Shown here: piece after piece, positions 23,029 through 30,095 of the stretch
Layout: the number at the start of each line of letters is the position of its first letter
How positions within the stretch are numbered: position 1 is the stretch's first letter
Assembly (NCBI GenBank): GCA_018268515.1
Contig: JAFDWK010000001.1
Location: 1-62,533 of the forward strand
Length of the DNA: 62,533 nt
Direction: 5' to 3'
Source: Actinomycetota bacterium
Lineage (GTDB): Bacteria > Actinomycetota > Actinomycetes > Actinomycetales > Microbacteriaceae
Program-made: the position numbers and the translations under genes
The notes under the pieces: generated by a model
Databases searched by the model: none
Told to the model about the DNA's origin: nothing
What the model saw: the letters and a program-made list of their open reading frames with translations, nothing else

Positions 23029-23978
23029 CGTGCTCCCGCCGGGTTCGCGTGCCGGGAGGCGTCGCCGGAGAGCGAACCGGTGCGGCGCGTGGTGTGCATG
23101 CCCCAGAGCGTAGCGACTGCGAGGCCCGCCACGATGTCCCACACACCCCACCAGCCGGCCACGACGGCCATGCCGCCGAGACCGCCGAAGAACGCGAACA
23201 CCAACCCGAGACCGAGGCCGGCGTTGCGGATGCCCACTTCGAACGTCATCGCCTTGCGCTCGCGCGTGCCGAGCCCGCCCAGCACGGCGGTGCCGTAGCC
23301 GATCGCGAGCGAGACCGCGTCGTGGATCGCGACCACGAGCAGCACGGATCCGATCACGCTGAGGAAGACGGCCCAGTTGCCGGCGAGCGCACCGATGATG
23401 AAGCCCAGCAGCGCCAGCAGGCTGAACCAGCGCACGAACGGCTGCACCCGCGAGGCGAGCCGCGGCAGCCGGGCGCGCAGCAGCAGGCCCGCGGCGAACG
23501 GCACTCCGATGATGAGCATGATCTCCAGCAGCATCTGCCACGGGTTCAACGCGACCTGGTGCAGCAGACGATGCGCGGTCGGGTGCACGGATCCCCAGAA
23601 CGCGATGCTCAGCGGCATGGCGACGAGGTAGAGCAGATTGCCGACCGCGGTCATCGACACGGACAGGGCGACGTTCCCGCCGGAGCGGTGGGTGAGCACC
23701 TGGGAGATGTTGCCGGGCGGGCAGCACGCCACCAGGATCATGCCGAGCGCCATCGACGGCGTCACCGGCAGGATCAGGGTCAGGCCGAAGGTGACGGCGG
23801 GCAGCACGAGCAGCTGCGCGAGGATCGCCACGATGAAGGGCTTGGGGTGCGTGAGCACGACTCGGAAGTCCTTGGGGGAGGTGTCCAGCGCGATGCCGAG
23901 CATGATCAGGCCGAGCACCACGTTGAGAATCGTCAGCGCGCCGGGCGCGAAGTGGACGACCACGTCGTCGACGTTCAT
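23025..23978 (-). CDS. BASS-family (bile acid:sodium symporter-like) transporter
   Basis: 317 residues with nine to ten membrane segments. GMILVACCPPGNISQVLTHR and GGNVALSVSMTAVGNLLYLV are the paired conserved motifs of BASS/SBF proteins, which move organic anions with sodium. KAMTFEVGIRNAGLGLGLVF is the late signature helix. It overlaps both flanking genes by four bases. Translational coupling suggests it moves a substrate or product of the flanking enzymes. Confidence 0.9.
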   Translation of the reverse strand: MNVDDVVVHFAPGALTILNVVLGLIMLGIALDTSPKDFRVVLTHPKPFIVAILAQLLVLPAVTFGLTLILPVTPSMALGMILVACCPPGNISQVLTHRSGGNVALSVSMTAVGNLLYLVAMPLSIAFWGSVHPTAHRLLHQVALNPWQMLLEIMLIIGVPFAAGLLLRARLPRLASRVQPFVRWFSLLALLGFIIGALAGNWAVFLSVIGSVLLVVAIHDAVSLAIGYGTAVLGGLGTRERKAMTFEVGIRNAGLGLGLVFAFFGGLGGMAVVAGWWGVWDIVAGLAVATLWGMHTTRRTGSLSGDASRHANPAGAR

Positions 23979-25300
23979 GAGCGTCCCCGGATCCCTTCGA
24001 CGAGCGCGGACCTCTCCGCGTTCACGGCACGCCGGTAGGCGTCCTTGTTCACGTAGTACGACATGCGTGCGAGCCCGAGGTAGTGGTAGCCGCCGGTGAG
24101 GTCGGGCCAGGAACCCGTCCGGACCCGCTCGCGGAATCGGGCGGCGCGCGCCGGATCCTCATCCTGGGCGGCCAGATAGGCGGCGATCAGCTCGGCCTGT
24201 TCGTAGCGGCCCTGCCAGCCGATGCCGCTGGCCTCGATCATGCCGCACACGAAGAGCCCGTTGAACGACGGCGGGAACACGTTCAGGAACAGCCGTGGCG
24301 AGGCACCCGTCCAGTTCAGGTGCTCCCGGTCGACGAACGGATAGTCCAGCCGGTATCCGGTGGCCAGCAGGATGAGGTCGTAGTCGCCGGCGGTGCCGTC
24401 GCGGAAGCGCACGGTCGATCCGTCGAAGCGGTCGACGTCGGCGCGGACCCGCAGGTCGCCCTGGCCGAGATGGTTCAGCACCAGGGTGTTCACGATCGGG
24501 TGCGACTCGTAGATGCGGTAGTCGGGCCGGGGGAAGCCGAACCGCACCGGGTCGCCCGTGAACGCTCGCAGCACCCGGGAGTCGATCGCCTGCTTGATCC
24601 GGGCGGGCAGCGGCCTGCCCTGGTTGAGGGTGTCGCTCGGCCGGCCGAACAGGTAGCGCGGCACGAAGTAGTAGCCGCGGCGCACGCTCATGTCCACGCT
24701 CTCCGCGTGGTGCACGGCGTCGACCGCGATGTCGCAGCCCGAGTTGCCGGCGCCGATGATGAGCACGCGCCGGCCGGCGAGCTGCGACGGATCCTTGTAT
24801 GCGCTGGTGTGCATGATCTCGCCCGAGAACCCGCCGGCGAACGTGGGGATGTTCGGCTCGGCGAGCGTGCCGTTCGCGAGGATCACTCCGCGATGGCGGT
24901 GCTCGGCCACGCGCTGCGCCCCGCGCGCGTCGGTCGTCGTCGTGCGCAGGATCCAGCCGTCGCCCTCGGGCGTCAGACGGTCCACGTGCGTGCCGAACCG
25001 GAACCGCTCGCGCAGCCCGAACGCGTCGGCATAATCGTCGAAGTAGCGCTTCAGGATGCGATGACCGGGGTAGTCCACGTCGCTGTCCATCGGGAACTCG
25101 GTGAACTCGGTGGTCGTGCGGGAGGAGATCAGGTGGGCGGAGGAGTACATCGTGCTGCGCGGGTTGGTGATGTCCCAGAGGCCCCCGACGCCGTGTGAGG
25201 CCTCGTATCCGGTGGCATCGATGCCCGCCTTCTGCAGCGCCCGCGCGACGGCGAGGCCCGACGGGCCCGCACCGATCACGGCGTACGAGGTGGCGGTCAT
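23975..25300 (-). CDS. Flavin-containing monooxygenase
   Basis: 441-residue class B flavin monooxygenase. The FAD motif GAGPSG is at 11-16. The FMO fingerprint FxGxxxHxxxY is intact as FSGEIMHTSAY at 158-168. The NADPH motif GAGNSG is at 183-188. Members oxygenate soft nucleophiles (N, S) or perform Baeyer-Villiger reactions. A GAAGGAG ribosome binding site precedes the ATG. First gene of the operon with the BASS transporter and the epimerase. Confidence 0.9.
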   Translation of the reverse strand: MTATSYAVIGAGPSGLAVARALQKAGIDATGYEASHGVGGLWDITNPRSTMYSSAHLISSRTTTEFTEFPMDSDVDYPGHRILKRYFDDYADAFGLRERFRFGTHVDRLTPEGDGWILRTTTTDARGAQRVAEHRHRGVILANGTLAEPNIPTFAGGFSGEIMHTSAYKDPSQLAGRRVLIIGAGNSGCDIAVDAVHHAESVDMSVRRGYYFVPRYLFGRPSDTLNQGRPLPARIKQAIDSRVLRAFTGDPVRFGFPRPDYRIYESHPIVNTLVLNHLGQGDLRVRADVDRFDGSTVRFRDGTAGDYDLILLATGYRLDYPFVDREHLNWTGASPRLFLNVFPPSFNGLFVCGMIEASGIGWQGRYEQAELIAAYLAAQDEDPARAARFRERVRTGSWPDLTGGYHYLGLARMSYYVNKDAYRRAVNAERSALVEGIRGRS

Positions 25301-25408
25301 GGTCTCCTTCGACGGCGCGGCCGGGTCATCGCGCGCAGTGCCCCGATCCTATCCCTCAGCTGGGAGAACGGTGGGAGCGGCGAGAGCGGAACAGGCGACC
25401 CGGATCCC

Positions 25409-25438
25409 TTGACGCCGACGGCATCGCGGCGGGATCGT
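25409..25438 (+). promoter_or_regulatory. Possible promoter of the sensor kinase gene
   Basis: TTGACG (25409-25414), 18 bases, then GATCGT (25433-25438), about 45 bases before the kinase start. The -35 is good and the -10 weak. Confidence 0.3.
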
Positions 25439-25482
25439 GAGAGCGCGGATCGGCTCGGTCCCGCGCACAGATCGGAGTGACG

Positions 25483-27228
25483 ATGGCGGATCCGCAGACG
25501 CCGGACGGGCGATCCGCCATCGCGCGGTCGCTGGATCGGTCGCTGCTGATGCTCGGGGTCGCCGGGCTGACGCTGGGCGTGATCTACCTCGCGCTGACCT
25601 TGCCGGTCCACGAACAGTGGTGGGCCTACGCACTGGCCATCGTCGCGTTCTGGACGTTCATCGCGGCCGGCATCCTGGCCTGGCAGCGCCGGCCGAGCAA
25701 CGGGATGGGCGCACTGATCGTGTTCGGCGGGTTCTCGCTCTACGTCGGCATGCTCGCCGACACCGGCGTGCCGATCCTGGCCGCCGTCGGCGTGCTGTGC
25801 GCGACGCTGCTGCTGGCGGTCACGCTGCATCTGCTGCACGCGTTCCCCTCCGGACGGCTGCGCGGACGGTTCTCCCGCGCGACCGTGATCGGGGGGTATC
25901 TGGTCTGCACCGTGCTGCAGGCGCCGCTGTTCCTGTTCGATGGGAACAGCCCCTCGCCCGAGCTGGTCATCGCGGACCGCCCGGACTTCGTCGCCCTGGG
26001 CGGCGTGATCCAGCAGGTCGCGGGCCTGCTGGTCACACTCGCCACCGTTGTCGTGCTGGCGTCGCGGCTGCGGCGCAGCGACGCCGTGCACCGGCGGGTG
26101 CTGATCCCGCTGTTCGGCTATGGGATCTTCGCGGTGCTGTTCGGCCCGTTCGGGCCGATGCTGCTCACAGCGCTGACCGGGATGGCGCCCGACCAGGGGG
26201 TGATCGTGCAGCTGCTGGTCTACATGGGCATCCCGATCGCGTTCGCGCTGAGCGTGCTGCGCGGCGGGTTCGCCCGCAGCGGCGAGCTGCAGGAACTCGG
26301 CACCTGGCTGGGCGGGAGCGACGGCACGCATCCGGAGCTGCGGTCGGCGCTCGCACGCACACTGGGCGACGACTCGCTGCGCGTGCTGTTCTGGGTGCCG
26401 GAGAGGGACGTCTTCGTCGACGCCGACGGCGTTCCGACCCGGCTGCCGCAGGGCGACGGGCGGGCGGCCGTCGATGTCGAGCTCGATGGCCGCCTGATCG
26501 GCGCGATCGAGTACGACTCGGACCTGATCGCCGAGGACGGCCTCGTGCGCATGGCGGGACGGATCGTCGCGATCGCGGTGGAACGCGATCGCCTCACTGC
26601 GGAACTGCTGGCGAGCCGGCGCGAGCTGCTCAGATCCCGAGCCCGGCTGGTGGAGACGGCAGAGCGCGAGCGCCGCAGGATCGCCCGGGACCTGCACGAC
26701 GGACTGCAGGTGCGGCTGGTGCTGCTCGGGATGCACGCCGGGGCGCTGGCGCGCGCCGAGGAGGCGTCCGACGGGTTCCGACGGGATGCGACCGCGCTGC
26801 GCGAGGGCATCGACAGTGCCGCGGGGGAGCTGCGCCGCTTCGTGCACGCGGTGATGCCCTCGACGCTCATCGAGCAGGGACTGGCCGCCGCGGCTGAGGA
26901 TCTGGTGGACCGGATGCCGGTACCCACCGCACTGGAGCTCGGGCTGGGCGAGGCGGATCTGCCCCAGACCATCGAGAGCGCGGCCTACTTCGTCATCGCC
27001 GAGGGGCTCGCGAACGCCCTCAAGCATGCCGAGGCGACGGCCTGCGCGGTGCGCGTGATCCACGACGGCGACGTGCTCAGCCTCGAGGTGGGCGACAACG
27101 GCGTGGGCGGCGCGGCCGCCCCGGTCGGGCTGCGCGATCGCATCGAGGCGGTCGGCGGCGTGCTGAAGGTCGACAGCCCCGCCGGGGGCGGGACGACGTT
27201 GAGAGTGGAGTTGCCGTGCGAGTGGTGA
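25483..27228 (+). CDS. Sensor histidine kinase (NarL-type two-component system)
   Basis: About 581 residues from ATG 25483, with CGGAG five bases upstream; a GTG at 25477 is an alternative start. The N-terminal half has roughly eight to nine membrane helices, followed by a soluble sensor-like region. The HisKA_3 dimerisation motif is RRIARDLHDGLQVRL with the phospho-accepting His, and the ATPase lobe shows EGLANALKHAEATA and GDNGVGGA. The response-regulator gene overlaps its 3' end, so they are a cognate pair. The signal is unknown. Confidence 0.9.
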   Translation: MADPQTPDGRSAIARSLDRSLLMLGVAGLTLGVIYLALTLPVHEQWWAYALAIVAFWTFIAAGILAWQRRPSNGMGALIVFGGFSLYVGMLADTGVPILAAVGVLCATLLLAVTLHLLHAFPSGRLRGRFSRATVIGGYLVCTVLQAPLFLFDGNSPSPELVIADRPDFVALGGVIQQVAGLLVTLATVVVLASRLRRSDAVHRRVLIPLFGYGIFAVLFGPFGPMLLTALTGMAPDQGVIVQLLVYMGIPIAFALSVLRGGFARSGELQELGTWLGGSDGTHPELRSALARTLGDDSLRVLFWVPERDVFVDADGVPTRLPQGDGRAAVDVELDGRLIGAIEYDSDLIAEDGLVRMAGRIVAIAVERDRLTAELLASRRELLRSRARLVETAERERRRIARDLHDGLQVRLVLLGMHAGALARAEEASDGFRRDATALREGIDSAAGELRRFVHAVMPSTLIEQGLAAAAEDLVDRMPVPTALELGLGEADLPQTIESAAYFVIAEGLANALKHAEATACAVRVIHDGDVLSLEVGDNGVGGAAAPVGLRDRIEAVGGVLKVDSPAGGGTTLRVELPCEW

Positions 27229-27863
27229 TCGCCGAGGACGAGGCCCTGCTGCGCCAGGGGCTCGCGCTGATGCTGAGGCAGGCCGGATTCCAGGTGGAGG
27301 GGACGGTCGCCGACGCAGAGCGGCTGATCAAGACCGTCGCAGAGCGGCGTCCCGACATCGTGGTCACCGACATCCGGATGCCGCCGACCTTCACCGACGA
27401 AGGCATGGTCGCGGCCCTGCACATCCGCGCCGCGTTTCCTGACACGGCCGTGATGGTGCTCTCGCAGTACGTGCAGCGAGGGTATGCGCGCGAACTGCTC
27501 GACACGCCGTCGGGTGGCGTGGGCTACCTGCTGAAGCAGCGGATCTCGGATGCGGACAGCTTCTGCGACGCGCTGCGGCGGATCGCGGCAGGCGGGACGG
27601 CACTGGATCCCGAGGTCGTCTCGATGATGGTCGATCGCGCGGGCAGGAGCGAGGAGGGGGTCGGCCGGCTCACGCCCCGGCAGCGCGAGGTACTGACGCT
27701 GATGGCGCAGGGGCGCAGCAACGGGTGGATCGCCGCGCACCTGTTCCTCAGCGAGAAGGCCGTCGTCCAGCACACCTCGAACATCTACGACGCGCTCGGC
27801 CTGCCGGTCGACGCCGACGACCACCGTCGCGTGCTCGCCGTGCTGCGCTACCTCGCGCACTGA
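27216..27863 (+). CDS. LuxR/NarL-type response regulator
   Basis: 215 residues from a GTG inside the kinase gene. The receiver domain has the acidic pair ED near residue 7 and the phospho-acceptor Asp in IVVTDIRMP. The conserved Lys sits in GYLLKQRI. The C-terminal helix-turn-helix begins at LTPRQREVLTLMAQGRSN. Its regulon is unknown. The closest downstream gene on the same strand is the NHLP-type peptide gene 130 bases away, a candidate target. Confidence 0.92.
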   Translation: MRVVIAEDEALLRQGLALMLRQAGFQVEGTVADAERLIKTVAERRPDIVVTDIRMPPTFTDEGMVAALHIRAAFPDTAVMVLSQYVQRGYARELLDTPSGGVGYLLKQRISDADSFCDALRRIAAGGTALDPEVVSMMVDRAGRSEEGVGRLTPRQREVLTLMAQGRSNGWIAAHLFLSEKAVVQHTSNIYDALGLPVDADDHRRVLAVLRYLAH

Positions 27864-27993
27864 GACCCCCGGCCCGCGCCGAAGCCGCCGAGCGCGGCGA
27901 CAGGTCCTGGGTCTATGGTCGCCGGAGCCCGCCCGGACGAGGCTGGGGGCACCGGTCGGACATCGATCGGACGAGGTACGGAGGAGGGGCAAC

Positions 27994-28272
27994 GTGGCAG
28001 AGCGGACCGGGCCGGAGAAGGCGCTGGCGGCGATCGTCGTGCGCAGCTGGAGCGACGAGGCGTTCCGCATCGATCTGCTGGCCGACGGCTCGGCAGCGCT
28101 GGAATCCAACGGATTCACCGTGCCGGAGGGCAAGCAGGTACGGGTGGTCGCGGACACCGAGGACGTCGTCCACCTGGTGCTGCCCCTGCGTCCGGCCGGG
28201 CTGACGGACGAGGAGCTCGAGGCCGTCGAGGAAGGATGGGCTCCCGTCCCGCCGTGCGATTTCGCCCCGTGA
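27994..28272 (+). CDS. NHLP-type (nitrile hydratase-like leader peptide) RiPP precursor, orphan
   Basis: 92 residues from GTG 27994 with a very strong GGAGGAGG ribosome binding site. Residues 9-66 align by eye with the N-terminal part of nitrile hydratase alpha: VVRSWSDEAFRIDLLADG, then GFTVPEGKQVRVVADTEDV and HLVLPLRP. The metal-binding CTLCSC motif of the enzyme is absent and is replaced by LTDEELEAVEEG, as in NHLP (TOMM-type) precursor leaders. The last 11 residues (WAPVPPCDFAP, with one Cys) would be the core if cleavage follows EEG. No YcaO, lanthionine, radical-SAM or peptidase-transporter gene is nearby. Secreted product or unmodified orphan: undecided. Confidence 0.7.
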   Translation: MAERTGPEKALAAIVVRSWSDEAFRIDLLADGSAALESNGFTVPEGKQVRVVADTEDVVHLVLPLRPAGLTDEELEAVEEGWAPVPPCDFAP

Positions 28273-28305
28273 GGGCGCCCGCGCGGACCGGCCGGCGGGA
28301 TCGGC

Positions 28306-28893
28306 TCAGCGGCGCTTGTCGAGTCGTGCGTCCAAGCCGTTGCGGACCGCCGGCCACTCGTGGGGGAGGATCGAGTACACCACGGTGTCGCGGAAGGCGC
28401 CGTCGGCTCCGATCCGGTGATTGCGCAGGATCCCGTCCTGCTTCGCGCCGAGCCGCTCGATCGCCGCACGGGACTGCCGGTTGTGGAAGTGCGTGCAGAA
28501 CTGCACCCGGATCGCGTCGCACGTTTCGAAGGCGTGCTCCAGCAGCAGGCGCTTGGCGGACGGGTTCACGGCGGTGCCGTGCACCTCGGGCGAGAGCCAG
28601 GTGTAGCCGATCTCCACGACGCGGTTGGGCTGGTCGATGGCGCAGTAGCTCGTCATCCCCACGGCGCGCCCGGTGTCCAGCCGCACGACGGCGAACGGGT
28701 TCATGAATCCGTCGGCGCGCCGGGCGAGACGCCGCACGATCTCCTCCGGAACGTCCTCGGCGGAAGGCACCGAGGTGTACCAGCGGTCCTCGAGCCCCGC
28801 GGTGGCGGCGGCGAGGTCCTCGGCGTGCTCGGGTGCGAGCGGCTCCAGTCGTACGAAGTCGTTCTCGAGGGTGACCGGCGTGAGGAAGTCCAT
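28306..28893 (-). CDS. GNAT-family N-acetyltransferase
   Basis: 195 residues. The N-terminal VTLENDFVRLEPL strand, EIGYTWLSPEVHGTAVNPSA core and RAAIERLGAKQDGILRNH tail fit the RimJ/RimL acetyltransferase_3 group, whose members acetylate small molecules or protein N-termini. It is convergent with the NHLP-type peptide gene, ending 34 bases from its stop, and probably has its own leaderless promoter. A link to modifying that peptide is conceivable but not supported. Confidence 0.85.
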   Translation of the reverse strand: MDFLTPVTLENDFVRLEPLAPEHAEDLAAATAGLEDRWYTSVPSAEDVPEEIVRRLARRADGFMNPFAVVRLDTGRAVGMTSYCAIDQPNRVVEIGYTWLSPEVHGTAVNPSAKRLLLEHAFETCDAIRVQFCTHFHNRQSRAAIERLGAKQDGILRNHRIGADGAFRDTVVYSILPHEWPAVRNGLDARLDKRR

Positions 28894-28899
28894 GGTCCG

Positions 28900-28905
28900 A
28901 GCGTA
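28900..28905 (-). promoter_or_regulatory. Leaderless -10 box TACGCT
   Basis: TACGCT on the minus strand, 6 bases before the acetyltransferase ATG, no ribosome binding site. Confidence 0.45.
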
Positions 28906-28943
28906 CCGGGACGCATGGGGCGTCCCGATACGCTCGCCGGGGC

Positions 28944-30095
28944 TCAGAGCGCGGCCTGGCGGGCCCTGACGGCCTCGCGCACGGCCGGGAACAGCGGGTG
29001 GTCCGCGTCGAGGCCGGTGACCTCCGCGACCAGCTCCTCCGCGACCAGCGTGCGCAGCATCCCCTGCAGCCGCACGGCCTCCTCATCGGCCGGGTCCGCG
29101 AACGCCAGCGCAGCGCCCATCGCCCCCACCAGCGCGGCGGTGCCGAGTCCCCTCTCGGCGGCCTCCGCGGCGGGTTCTGTGAAGCGCTCGTGGCGCGACA
29201 GCTTGCGCAGCGGCTGCCGTCCCACGCGCTGCACGGTGTCGGGCAGCGCGGGGTTGCGGAACCGGTCGATGATCTTCGCGCGGTAGTCGGCGAGGTCCTG
29301 CGGATCCAGCCCGTGGCGCGCGACCAGCACGGCCGAGGTCTCGATGAGGGCTGCGCCCACCGCGGTCTCGATCGCGGGATCGGCGAGCGATTCCGCGATC
29401 GTCGCGTGCCCCGCCGCGGCGCCGAGGTAGGCGGTCGCGGCATGACCCGTGTTGACGGTGAACAGCTTGCGCTCGATGTACGGCGCCAGAGAGTCGACGA
29501 AATGGGCGCCCGGGATCCTCGGGGGGTTCCCCGCGAACGGCACGGCCTCGATCGCCCACTCGAAGTACGGCTCCACGGTGACGTCGATGCCCGCGGAGGC
29601 CTGCGGCGCCGGGACGATGCGATCGACCGCGGTGTTGGCGAACACGGCCCGTGCCAGCAGCTCCTCGGCGCGGTCGCCCGCGGCGGCGGCGATCTCGTCG
29701 CGCAGCCGGTCGGTCGCGCCGATGGCGTTCTCGCATGCCATGATCGCGACCGGGGGCGCCTCCGACCCGCGGCGTTCGAGCCCCGCGGCGATCACCGGGG
29801 CCACGAAGCGGAGCACGGTCGGGCCGACCGCGGTGGTGACGACGGCGGCCGAGGCGACGGCGTCGGCCGCCGCCTCGGGGGCGCGGCGGCTGTCGACCGC
29901 CCTGAATCCGGTCACCACGTGGTCGCGGCCGCCCGGCCCGGCCTCATGCACGGTGTACTCCGACGCCGCGTTGATGGCGTCGACGAGCTCGGAGGCGACA
30001 TCGGAGAACACCAGGTCGTAGCCGGCCTCGTGCAGCAGCAGGCCGACGAAGCCGCGCCCGATGTTGCCCGCGCCGAAGTGCACCGCGATGGGCAT
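28944..30095 (-). CDS. mtlD: Mannitol-1-phosphate 5-dehydrogenase
   Basis: 383 residues; oxidises mannitol-1-phosphate to fructose-6-phosphate with NAD. GAGNIGRGFVG at 8-18 is the family NAD motif. The ERKLFTVNTGHAATAYLGA segment carries the conserved active-site Lys-x-x-x-x-N-x-G-H. It overlaps the EIIA stop by one base and is the last gene of the PTS operon. Confidence 0.96.
   Translation of the reverse strand: MPIAVHFGAGNIGRGFVGLLLHEAGYDLVFSDVASELVDAINAASEYTVHEAGPGGRDHVVTGFRAVDSRRAPEAAADAVASAAVVTTAVGPTVLRFVAPVIAAGLERRGSEAPPVAIMACENAIGATDRLRDEIAAAAGDRAEELLARAVFANTAVDRIVPAPQASAGIDVTVEPYFEWAIEAVPFAGNPPRIPGAHFVDSLAPYIERKLFTVNTGHAATAYLGAAAGHATIAESLADPAIETAVGAALIETSAVLVARHGLDPQDLADYRAKIIDRFRNPALPDTVQRVGRQPLRKLSRHERFTEPAAEAAERGLGTAALVGAMGAALAFADPADEEAVRLQGMLRTLVAEELVAEVTGLDADHPLFPAVREAVRARQAAL

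Follow-up and report, generated by a model that had tools for sequence, protein, structure and literature searches.

A nitrile hydratase-like leader protein beside a two-component system in a Microbacterium genome: a candidate orphan sharing an operator-like element with its congeners

NHLP leaders and the protein of the window

The closest described counterparts of the locus studied here are the leaders of TOMM and proteusin precursors, the nitrile hydratase-like leader peptides (NHLPs) covered by the curated model TIGR03793. According to the accessible part of a 2010 paper (PMC2887384), these leaders show, relative to the alpha subunit of nitrile hydratase (NHase alpha), a deletion around the metal site, and genomes that carry such leaders without known maturation enzymes are already mentioned there. 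The window, by which we mean the whole stretch of 62,533 nucleotides that was analysed, encodes a protein that shares with the precursors of that paper, as its accessible part describes them, the leader domain, the length, the short C-terminal tail and the kinship to NHase alpha without the metal motif. It differs from them, again as that part of the source presents them, in having no Gly-Gly cleavage site and a tail poor in heterocyclizable residues, in a genome without a detected YcaO or NHLM ABC1 gene, and in an adjacent two-component system (TCS) with an operator-like element.

Closer relatives of the locus are the YcaO-SagB-NHLM clusters of other Microbacterium genomes, with which it has the leader domain in common. 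In five of six such congeners a homologous LuxR-type TCS adjoins the cluster or the exporter. An element of the same type precedes leader, exporter and some kinase genes in these genomes, as it precedes the NHLP gene in the window. However, the window holds a TCS and a leader only, to which the Microbacterium clusters add YcaO, SagB and NHLM genes, and its leader and TCS run in the same direction, while the two are opposed in G185, G238, G239 and G283. The model TIGR03793 exceeds its cut-off in seven of 366 Microbacterium genomes, the window genome included; five further genomes have two matches each under the cut-off, which are presumed to be NHase alpha. In all six leader-bearing congeners, a fused YcaO cyclodehydratase and a SagB dehydrogenase adjoin a leader, and in G142, G185, G238 (Microbacterium sp. 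TPD7012), G239 and G283 (EST19A) the genes for NHLM HlyD, ABC1 and ABC2 are adjacent to the leader cluster. These family assignments rest on HMM matches for six proteins of G239 and for G188, and elsewhere on tblastn with the G239 proteins, to which identities were 54-99% for YcaO, 49-98% for SagB and 78-99% for ABC1. In M. rhizomatis JCM 30598 (G188), another leader, without YcaO/SagB, lies at a distance of 13 kb, and an NHLM-type HlyD with the start of an ABC1 stands beside a TCS at another place (L055). Within that genome these NHLM-type exporter genes lie at about 534k of C2, with a LANC_like protein (L095) encoded about 19 kb from them, distant from the leaders at 1174k and 1187k of C2.

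An earlier note on this DNA, made from the letters alone, had described an open reading frame of 92 residues behind a ribosome binding site, its product passing from LEAVEEG into a tail WAPVPPCDFAP, and all of this was borne out. Translation starts at a GTG at 27994, the gene occupies 27994..28272 of the forward strand, and the ribosome binding site GGAGGAGGGG lies at 27980-27989. The leader domain comprises residues 11-81 by its TIGR03793 match (28024..28236) and closes on LEAVEEG, after which the 11-residue tail (28237..28269) stands at the place of a core peptide. The note had also seen a likeness to NHase alpha without the CTLCSC motif, and had proposed that NHLP and NHase alpha profiles be compared; the likeness and the missing motif are both confirmed. 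The protein reaches 62.8 bits (E 1.9e-17) with TIGR03793, whose cut-off is 50.9, and 53.5 bits with PF02979, above the cut-off of that model, but 53.7 bits with the full NHase alpha model TIGR01323, whose cut-off is 249.85, and the metal motif (CxxCSC) is indeed absent. Its codon-position GC of 0.785, 0.473 and 0.871 is close to the window medians of 0.723, 0.482 and 0.925, and together with the scores for TIGR03793 and PF02979 this rules out a chance open reading frame. Among PDB sequences the closest by E-value are NHase alpha chains, and NHase alpha is matched in two overlapping stretches that flank the metal site.

AlphaFold2, run on 29 sequences, predicts helices at residues 7-20, 22-30, 32-38 and 72-79, with a mean pLDDT of 83, a pTM of 0.58 and less certainty in the tail; an earlier model from 8 sequences was poor (pLDDT 60.6) and was set aside. 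A Foldseek search with this model returned no match at E <= 0.001. Its best match was 8tb1, the NMR structure of a proteusin precursor (probability 0.99, E 0.041, rmsd 8.5), followed mostly by NHase alpha chains, and the likeness of the predicted fold to 8tb1 is no more than suggestive. When the protein served as query, the one match at E <= 1e-4 in a family sample of 398 genomes was the window itself, and 396 genomes of the order gave three weak others (E 4e-7 to 3e-5, reaching residues 63-73); the leader-bearing congeners were not among the matches of either sample and were presumably not drawn. Weak matches were also seen in G006 and G033 (E 0.005 and 0.007), and a contig search with the single protein as query gave no match. 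The earlier note had asked whether the tail varies faster than the leader, which it does among the seven congener leaders; for the window protein, no close orthologue was found in the genus, family, order, phage, viral, plasmid or contig searches.

The two-component system and its operator-like element

Upstream of the NHLP gene, on the same strand, lie the genes for a sensor histidine kinase of 583 aa (HisKA_3; 25477..27228; PF07730, PF02518) and a response regulator of 215 aa with receiver and LuxR/GerE domains (27216..27863; PF00072, PF00196). The stop of the regulator at 27863 leaves 130 bases before the NHLP gene, as the earlier note had counted, and the gap on the other side of the NHLP gene is 33 bases. 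The kinase is matched at E<=1e-60 in 54 of 361 Microbacterium genomes (its own included, with no more than three candidates per genome scored). This set contains all seven leader genomes (Fisher 1.2e-6, uncorrected for kinship, with G238 and G239 nearly the same genome and with samples of 366 and 361 genomes that were not identical), and 47 of the 54 have no leader over the TIGR03793 cut-off. Homologous TCS pairs adjoin the clusters of G185, G238, G239 and G283, whose flanking regulators are 67-68% identical to that of the window, and, in G188, the exporter genes; the kinase of G142 is located about 73 kb from the leader. An unrooted tree of 37 kinase-plus-regulator rows (29 loci and the cluster-flanking pairs, one pair being present twice) places the window pair on a long branch (0.67) among rows whose loci have other neighbours, outside an 18-row clade that holds all nine rows with NHLM neighbours. 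The link between this type of TCS and NHLPs is real, and it is looser than the descent of one fixed cluster, since the window pair stands outside the NHLM-neighbour clade. A possible parallel pairing of TCS and NHLP is seen on an 11.6 kb contig of a Desulfarculaceae MAG (L143), which carries a Gly-Gly-free NHLP and kinase and regulator homologues that match only weakly (74 bits each); the contig piece has no YcaO or ABC1 match.

That this TCS may control the NHLP gene, as the earlier note had surmised, is supported by a shared operator-like element. The pooled leader, exporter and kinase sites give the consensus GACCYRGGTCYATGG, in which YATGG follows the inverted repeat GACC-NN-GGTC. One putative copy, GTCCTGGGTCTATGG (27904..27918, forward strand), lies 75 nt before the NHLP start and has one mismatch to the consensus, and a weaker copy, GACCCGGATCCCTTG (25397..25411, forward strand), lies 65 nt before the sensor kinase and has three. 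The congener leaders have the common element 70-87 nt before their starts, their promoters showing 2-3 mismatches to GACCYRGGTCYATGG, and the NHLM HlyD promoters of G142, G238, G239 and G283 show 0-1. A weight matrix made from six congener sites, with the window left out, puts the window site in 6th place among 125,032 positions, all five higher positions lying inside called genes; the register of this matrix was set after the likeness to the window site had been noticed. Simulated gaps held a site as good as that upstream of the NHLP gene in 6 of 20,000 cases, and as good as that upstream of the kinase, which is the best in its gap, in 262 of 20,000. Furthermore, at up to three mismatches the window has ten sites, the only two intergenic ones being those before the kinase (65 nt) and the NHLP gene (75 nt).

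Across seven genomes, GACCYRGGTCYATGG occurs at 37 sites with at most one mismatch, against 6 for the reversed pattern. The window genome alone (3.7 Mb) has 3 sites, that before the NHLP gene among them, against 2 for this control, which makes the number of sites uninformative there and their position informative. The downstream genes, read at 30 of the 37 sites, include HlyD genes (78-82 nt), sensor kinases and secreted lipoprotein or hydrolase-like genes, as well as pairs of double-Gly peptides of 55-57 residues in G238 and G239 (69-70 nt); some sites are intragenic or have no convincing gene downstream. Across 29 loci (137 kb) that carry a relative of the window kinase, up to two mismatches give 15 sites against 1 for the control; a called kinase gene follows seven of these sites, and another three are close to one. 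Such placement before kinase genes suggests that the TCS may regulate itself through the element, while 16 of the 29 loci carry no element at up to two mismatches, and of the 18 loci that fall on the same side of the tree as the window, 13 lack one. From these sites we infer a candidate regulon of the NHLP-linked TCS, whose regulator would bind the element; the NHLP gene has the element that marks a member of this proposed regulon (one mismatch, 75 nt).

Maturation genes, the Gly-Gly site and the genome block

The earlier note had reported no maturation genes in the neighbourhood, an observation that we could extend to the whole available genome (G000; 3.7 Mb in 115 contigs, 96.17% complete). 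Profile searches of this genome gave no match to YcaO (PF02624; positive in 5 of 14 control genomes), to LANC_like (PF05147; 1 of 14, present in G188) or to SPASM (TIGR04085; 10 of 14), the last being also absent from all six leader-bearing congeners. For NHLM ABC1 (TIGR03796), with 75 of 114 candidates scored, the best match in the genome reached 345.9 bits against a cut-off of 853.3. None of the 83 matches listed for this model starts before profile position 139, and thus none reaches the C39-peptidase part. With four models searched at this completeness, maturation genes are likely absent from the window genome.

The end of the leader departs from that of the congeners as well. Where the seven congener leaders have AGG or AAG, the window protein has EEG, so that the Gly-Gly cleavage site is missing, which the earlier note had not remarked on, and Glu79 stands in the place of the invariant Ala. 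It keeps 20 of the 31 columns that are invariant among these leaders and aligns to them at 37-43% identity over the whole leader, and its tail has a single Cys and no Ser, Thr or Gly. How such sites go together with export genes was surveyed by a contig search of which the best 80 of 209 matches (79 loci) were kept; 30 loci resembled NHase or were too long, which left 49 leader-type rows. The Microbacterium loci account for four of these, three rows (L126, L137, L150) were assigned by eye, and some flanks are short. Among these 49 rows from the best 80 of 209 matches, all 18 leader-type NHLPs with a flanking NHLM ABC1 have a Gly-Gly-type site, and ABC1 is found in 0 of 16 fetched flanks of those without one (18/15 and 0/16, P 1e-4, uncorrected for kinship). 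Two rows are arguable, L155 (AAG), counted without a site, and L156 (EAG), counted with one, and neither has ABC1. In the same 49 rows, YcaO flanks 10 of the 16 NHLPs without a site, and 16 of the 49 have neither YcaO nor ABC1 in the flank, several of them on short contigs. A Gly-Gly-free leader in an NHLM-free genome therefore fits the pattern of the survey, in which ABC1 occurs only beside leaders of the Gly-Gly type. The surveyed NHLPs L118, L121, L122 and L153 resemble the window in having neither a Gly-Gly site nor a flanking NHLM ABC1, but they have YcaO in the flank, and here the window genome, in which none is found, differs from these four as from the ten of 16 at large.

Kinase, regulator, NHLP gene and a GNAT acetyltransferase gene (28306..28893, reverse strand; PF13302) together make up a block of 3.6 kb (25301..28943) that separates an FMO-like monooxygenase (23975-25300) from the mannitol-1-phosphate dehydrogenase mtlD (28944-30095). 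In four congeners (G001, G002, G004 and G005) this junction is closed: the FMO gene, at 77-79% identity, directly adjoins mtlD, and the GNAT gene is absent from the junction as well. The mtlD gene was matched in 19 congeners; in G008 and G013 the FMO gene is one gene away, and in the remaining congeners with an mtlD match the fetched 1.5 kb showed no FMO gene. The simpler reading is that the block would have been inserted in the window lineage rather than lost in the others. The 50-base gap that separates the GNAT gene from the mtlD stop holds a strong hairpin on the reverse strand at 28898-28936 (-35 kcal/mol for the whole gap), which is probably a terminator.

As to where the block came from, an origin from a phage or plasmid was rejected on the searches made. 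Neither phages, searched with the protein, nor viral contigs, searched with the alignment, gave an NHLP match. A plasmid search with the protein found only NHLP and NHase-like genes at less than 60% identity in nine records, and the 4.5 kb neighbourhood of the NHLP gene had no plasmid match. PADLOC gave no more than weak domain matches. The idea that the locus is the relict of a congener-type cluster after an internal deletion is weakened by the TCS tree, by the orientation of the genes and by the gaps of 130 and 33 bases. As the window TCS falls outside the NHLM-neighbour clade, a simple mid-cluster deletion is unsupported, and no cluster remnants are visible around the window NHLP gene.

Possible roles of a probably orphaned leader

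Our preferred reading, to which we give a probability of roughly 0.55, is that of an orphaned NHLP leader protein under its TCS, uncoupled from maturation and export and either relict or repurposed. It builds on what was directly seen, namely the family match, a gene block where FMO and mtlD meet directly in four congeners, the element shared with the leader-bearing genomes and the lack of any match to the machinery models. Kinase and regulator would respond to some signal, the TCS being autoregulated via its element, and the regulator would act at the GACC-NN-GGTC element, 75 nt ahead of the NHLP gene, to turn that gene on. The genes for maturation and export would have gone from the strain, or would never have arrived, and the Gly-Gly site would have been lost while the leader domain stayed folded. 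With no maturase or exporter detected, the product would stay as made, an unmodified 92-residue protein that is most likely kept inside the cell. Since TOMM leader, exporter and double-Gly peptide genes of the congeners have the same type of element upstream, the module of the window may represent a stripped NHLP bacteriocin regulon. Against this reading count the place of the window TCS outside the NHLM-neighbour clade, the 47 of 54 kinase-bearing genomes without a leader over cut-off, the 16 of 29 kinase loci without an element, the 2-3 mismatches in the congener leader promoters, the element being no commoner in the window's own genome than its control (3 vs 2), and the genome completeness of 96.17%. 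The intact domain, the strong ribosome binding site and the kept element likewise point to use rather than to a dead gene.

The earlier note had seen in the protein a candidate precursor of NHLP/TOMM layout, of which the leader domain stands by its TIGR03793 match. A working RiPP precursor in this strain is not supported, given the EEG site, the one-Cys tail without Ser or Thr, and the lack of a YcaO, LanC, SPASM or NHLM ABC1 gene. It could nonetheless be matured in trans, by an enzyme whose gene the assembly lacks, or by one of a class free of SPASM, LanC and YcaO domains, with some other protease releasing the tail, and we regard this as rather unlikely. NHLPs distant from their enzymes are established in the accessible part of PMC2887384, and 16 of the 49 leader-type NHLPs from the best 80 of 209 matches, several on short contigs, have no flanking YcaO or ABC1. 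In that same set, YcaO flanks 10 of the 16 Gly-Gly-free NHLPs and ABC1 none, so that a precursor free of Gly-Gly is no oddity, and the tail does offer one Cys. However, this Cys is the only one and comes without Ser or Thr, none of the four models finds its gene in a genome that is 96% complete, and the six congeners all retain their enzymes beside at least one leader copy. Far less probable is a truncated NHase alpha subunit, which would account for the PF02979 score over cut-off and for the NHase alpha chains closest by E-value in the PDB. We reject it, because TIGR03793 is over its cut-off and TIGR01323 far under (53.7 vs 249.85), because the matches lie on both sides of the metal site and overlap, a deletion of the kind described in the accessible part of PMC2887384, and because the protein aligns with the congener NHLP leaders at 37-43% along the whole leader.

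Another tentative proposal, which we consider possible though improbable, is that the NHLP domain now acts on its own to deliver output of the TCS or feedback to it, for example by binding the kinase or the regulator. In favour of it, the only two intergenic element sites of the window (<=3 mismatches) precede the kinase and the NHLP gene, the fold is predicted to be intact, and NHLPs contact a YcaO enzyme by protein-protein surfaces, as reported in the accessible part of PMC12455567. Conversely, the overlapping sets of 366, 398 and 396 genomes yielded no other copy of the module, and thus no conservation backs a function. Taken further, and held by us with similar reserve, the leader domain may have been taken over as a stand-alone output or feedback partner of the TCS and may no longer yield a peptide, the locus then being the minimal form of an undescribed autoregulated Microbacterium regulon that would join NHLP-TOMM precursors, NHLM exporters and double-Gly peptides.

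Orphan NHLPs themselves found mention as early as 2010; what is new here is an element common to these loci and a TCS-NHLP module of minimal form, neither of which was found in the literature searched, mostly at the level of titles. In the same literature we found no paper joining Microbacterium with NHLP, none joining Microbacterium bacteriocin, two-component system and double-glycine, and nothing judged related on a Microbacterium response regulator with a palindrome or autoregulation. A genome-mining RiPP study (PMC10036551) that turned up for Microbacterium, YcaO and leader peptide reportedly deals with ribosomal peptides with two amino termini. The case provides a handle on orphan NHLPs, with a regulator pair and one leader, a predicted operator, and congeners that have the complete system. 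Moreover, the element points to further candidate regulon members, namely exporters and the double-Gly peptides of 55-57 residues, and is a possible route to unlinked precursors. These peptides are encoded in tandem pairs in G238 (L193) and G239 (L194), with leaders that end in ELTDEQLAEVAGG and ELTEEQLEQVAGG. Neither peptide of L193 has a Pfam match, and the pairs are candidate substrates or signals for the NHLM exporter, to which they are not linked. A leader end of like style is seen in short peptides of L201 (G283) and L026 (9395-9574, G238), whose leaders end in TNEQLDEVAG and TDEQLAEVAGG and which are divergent from the NHLP leader operon.
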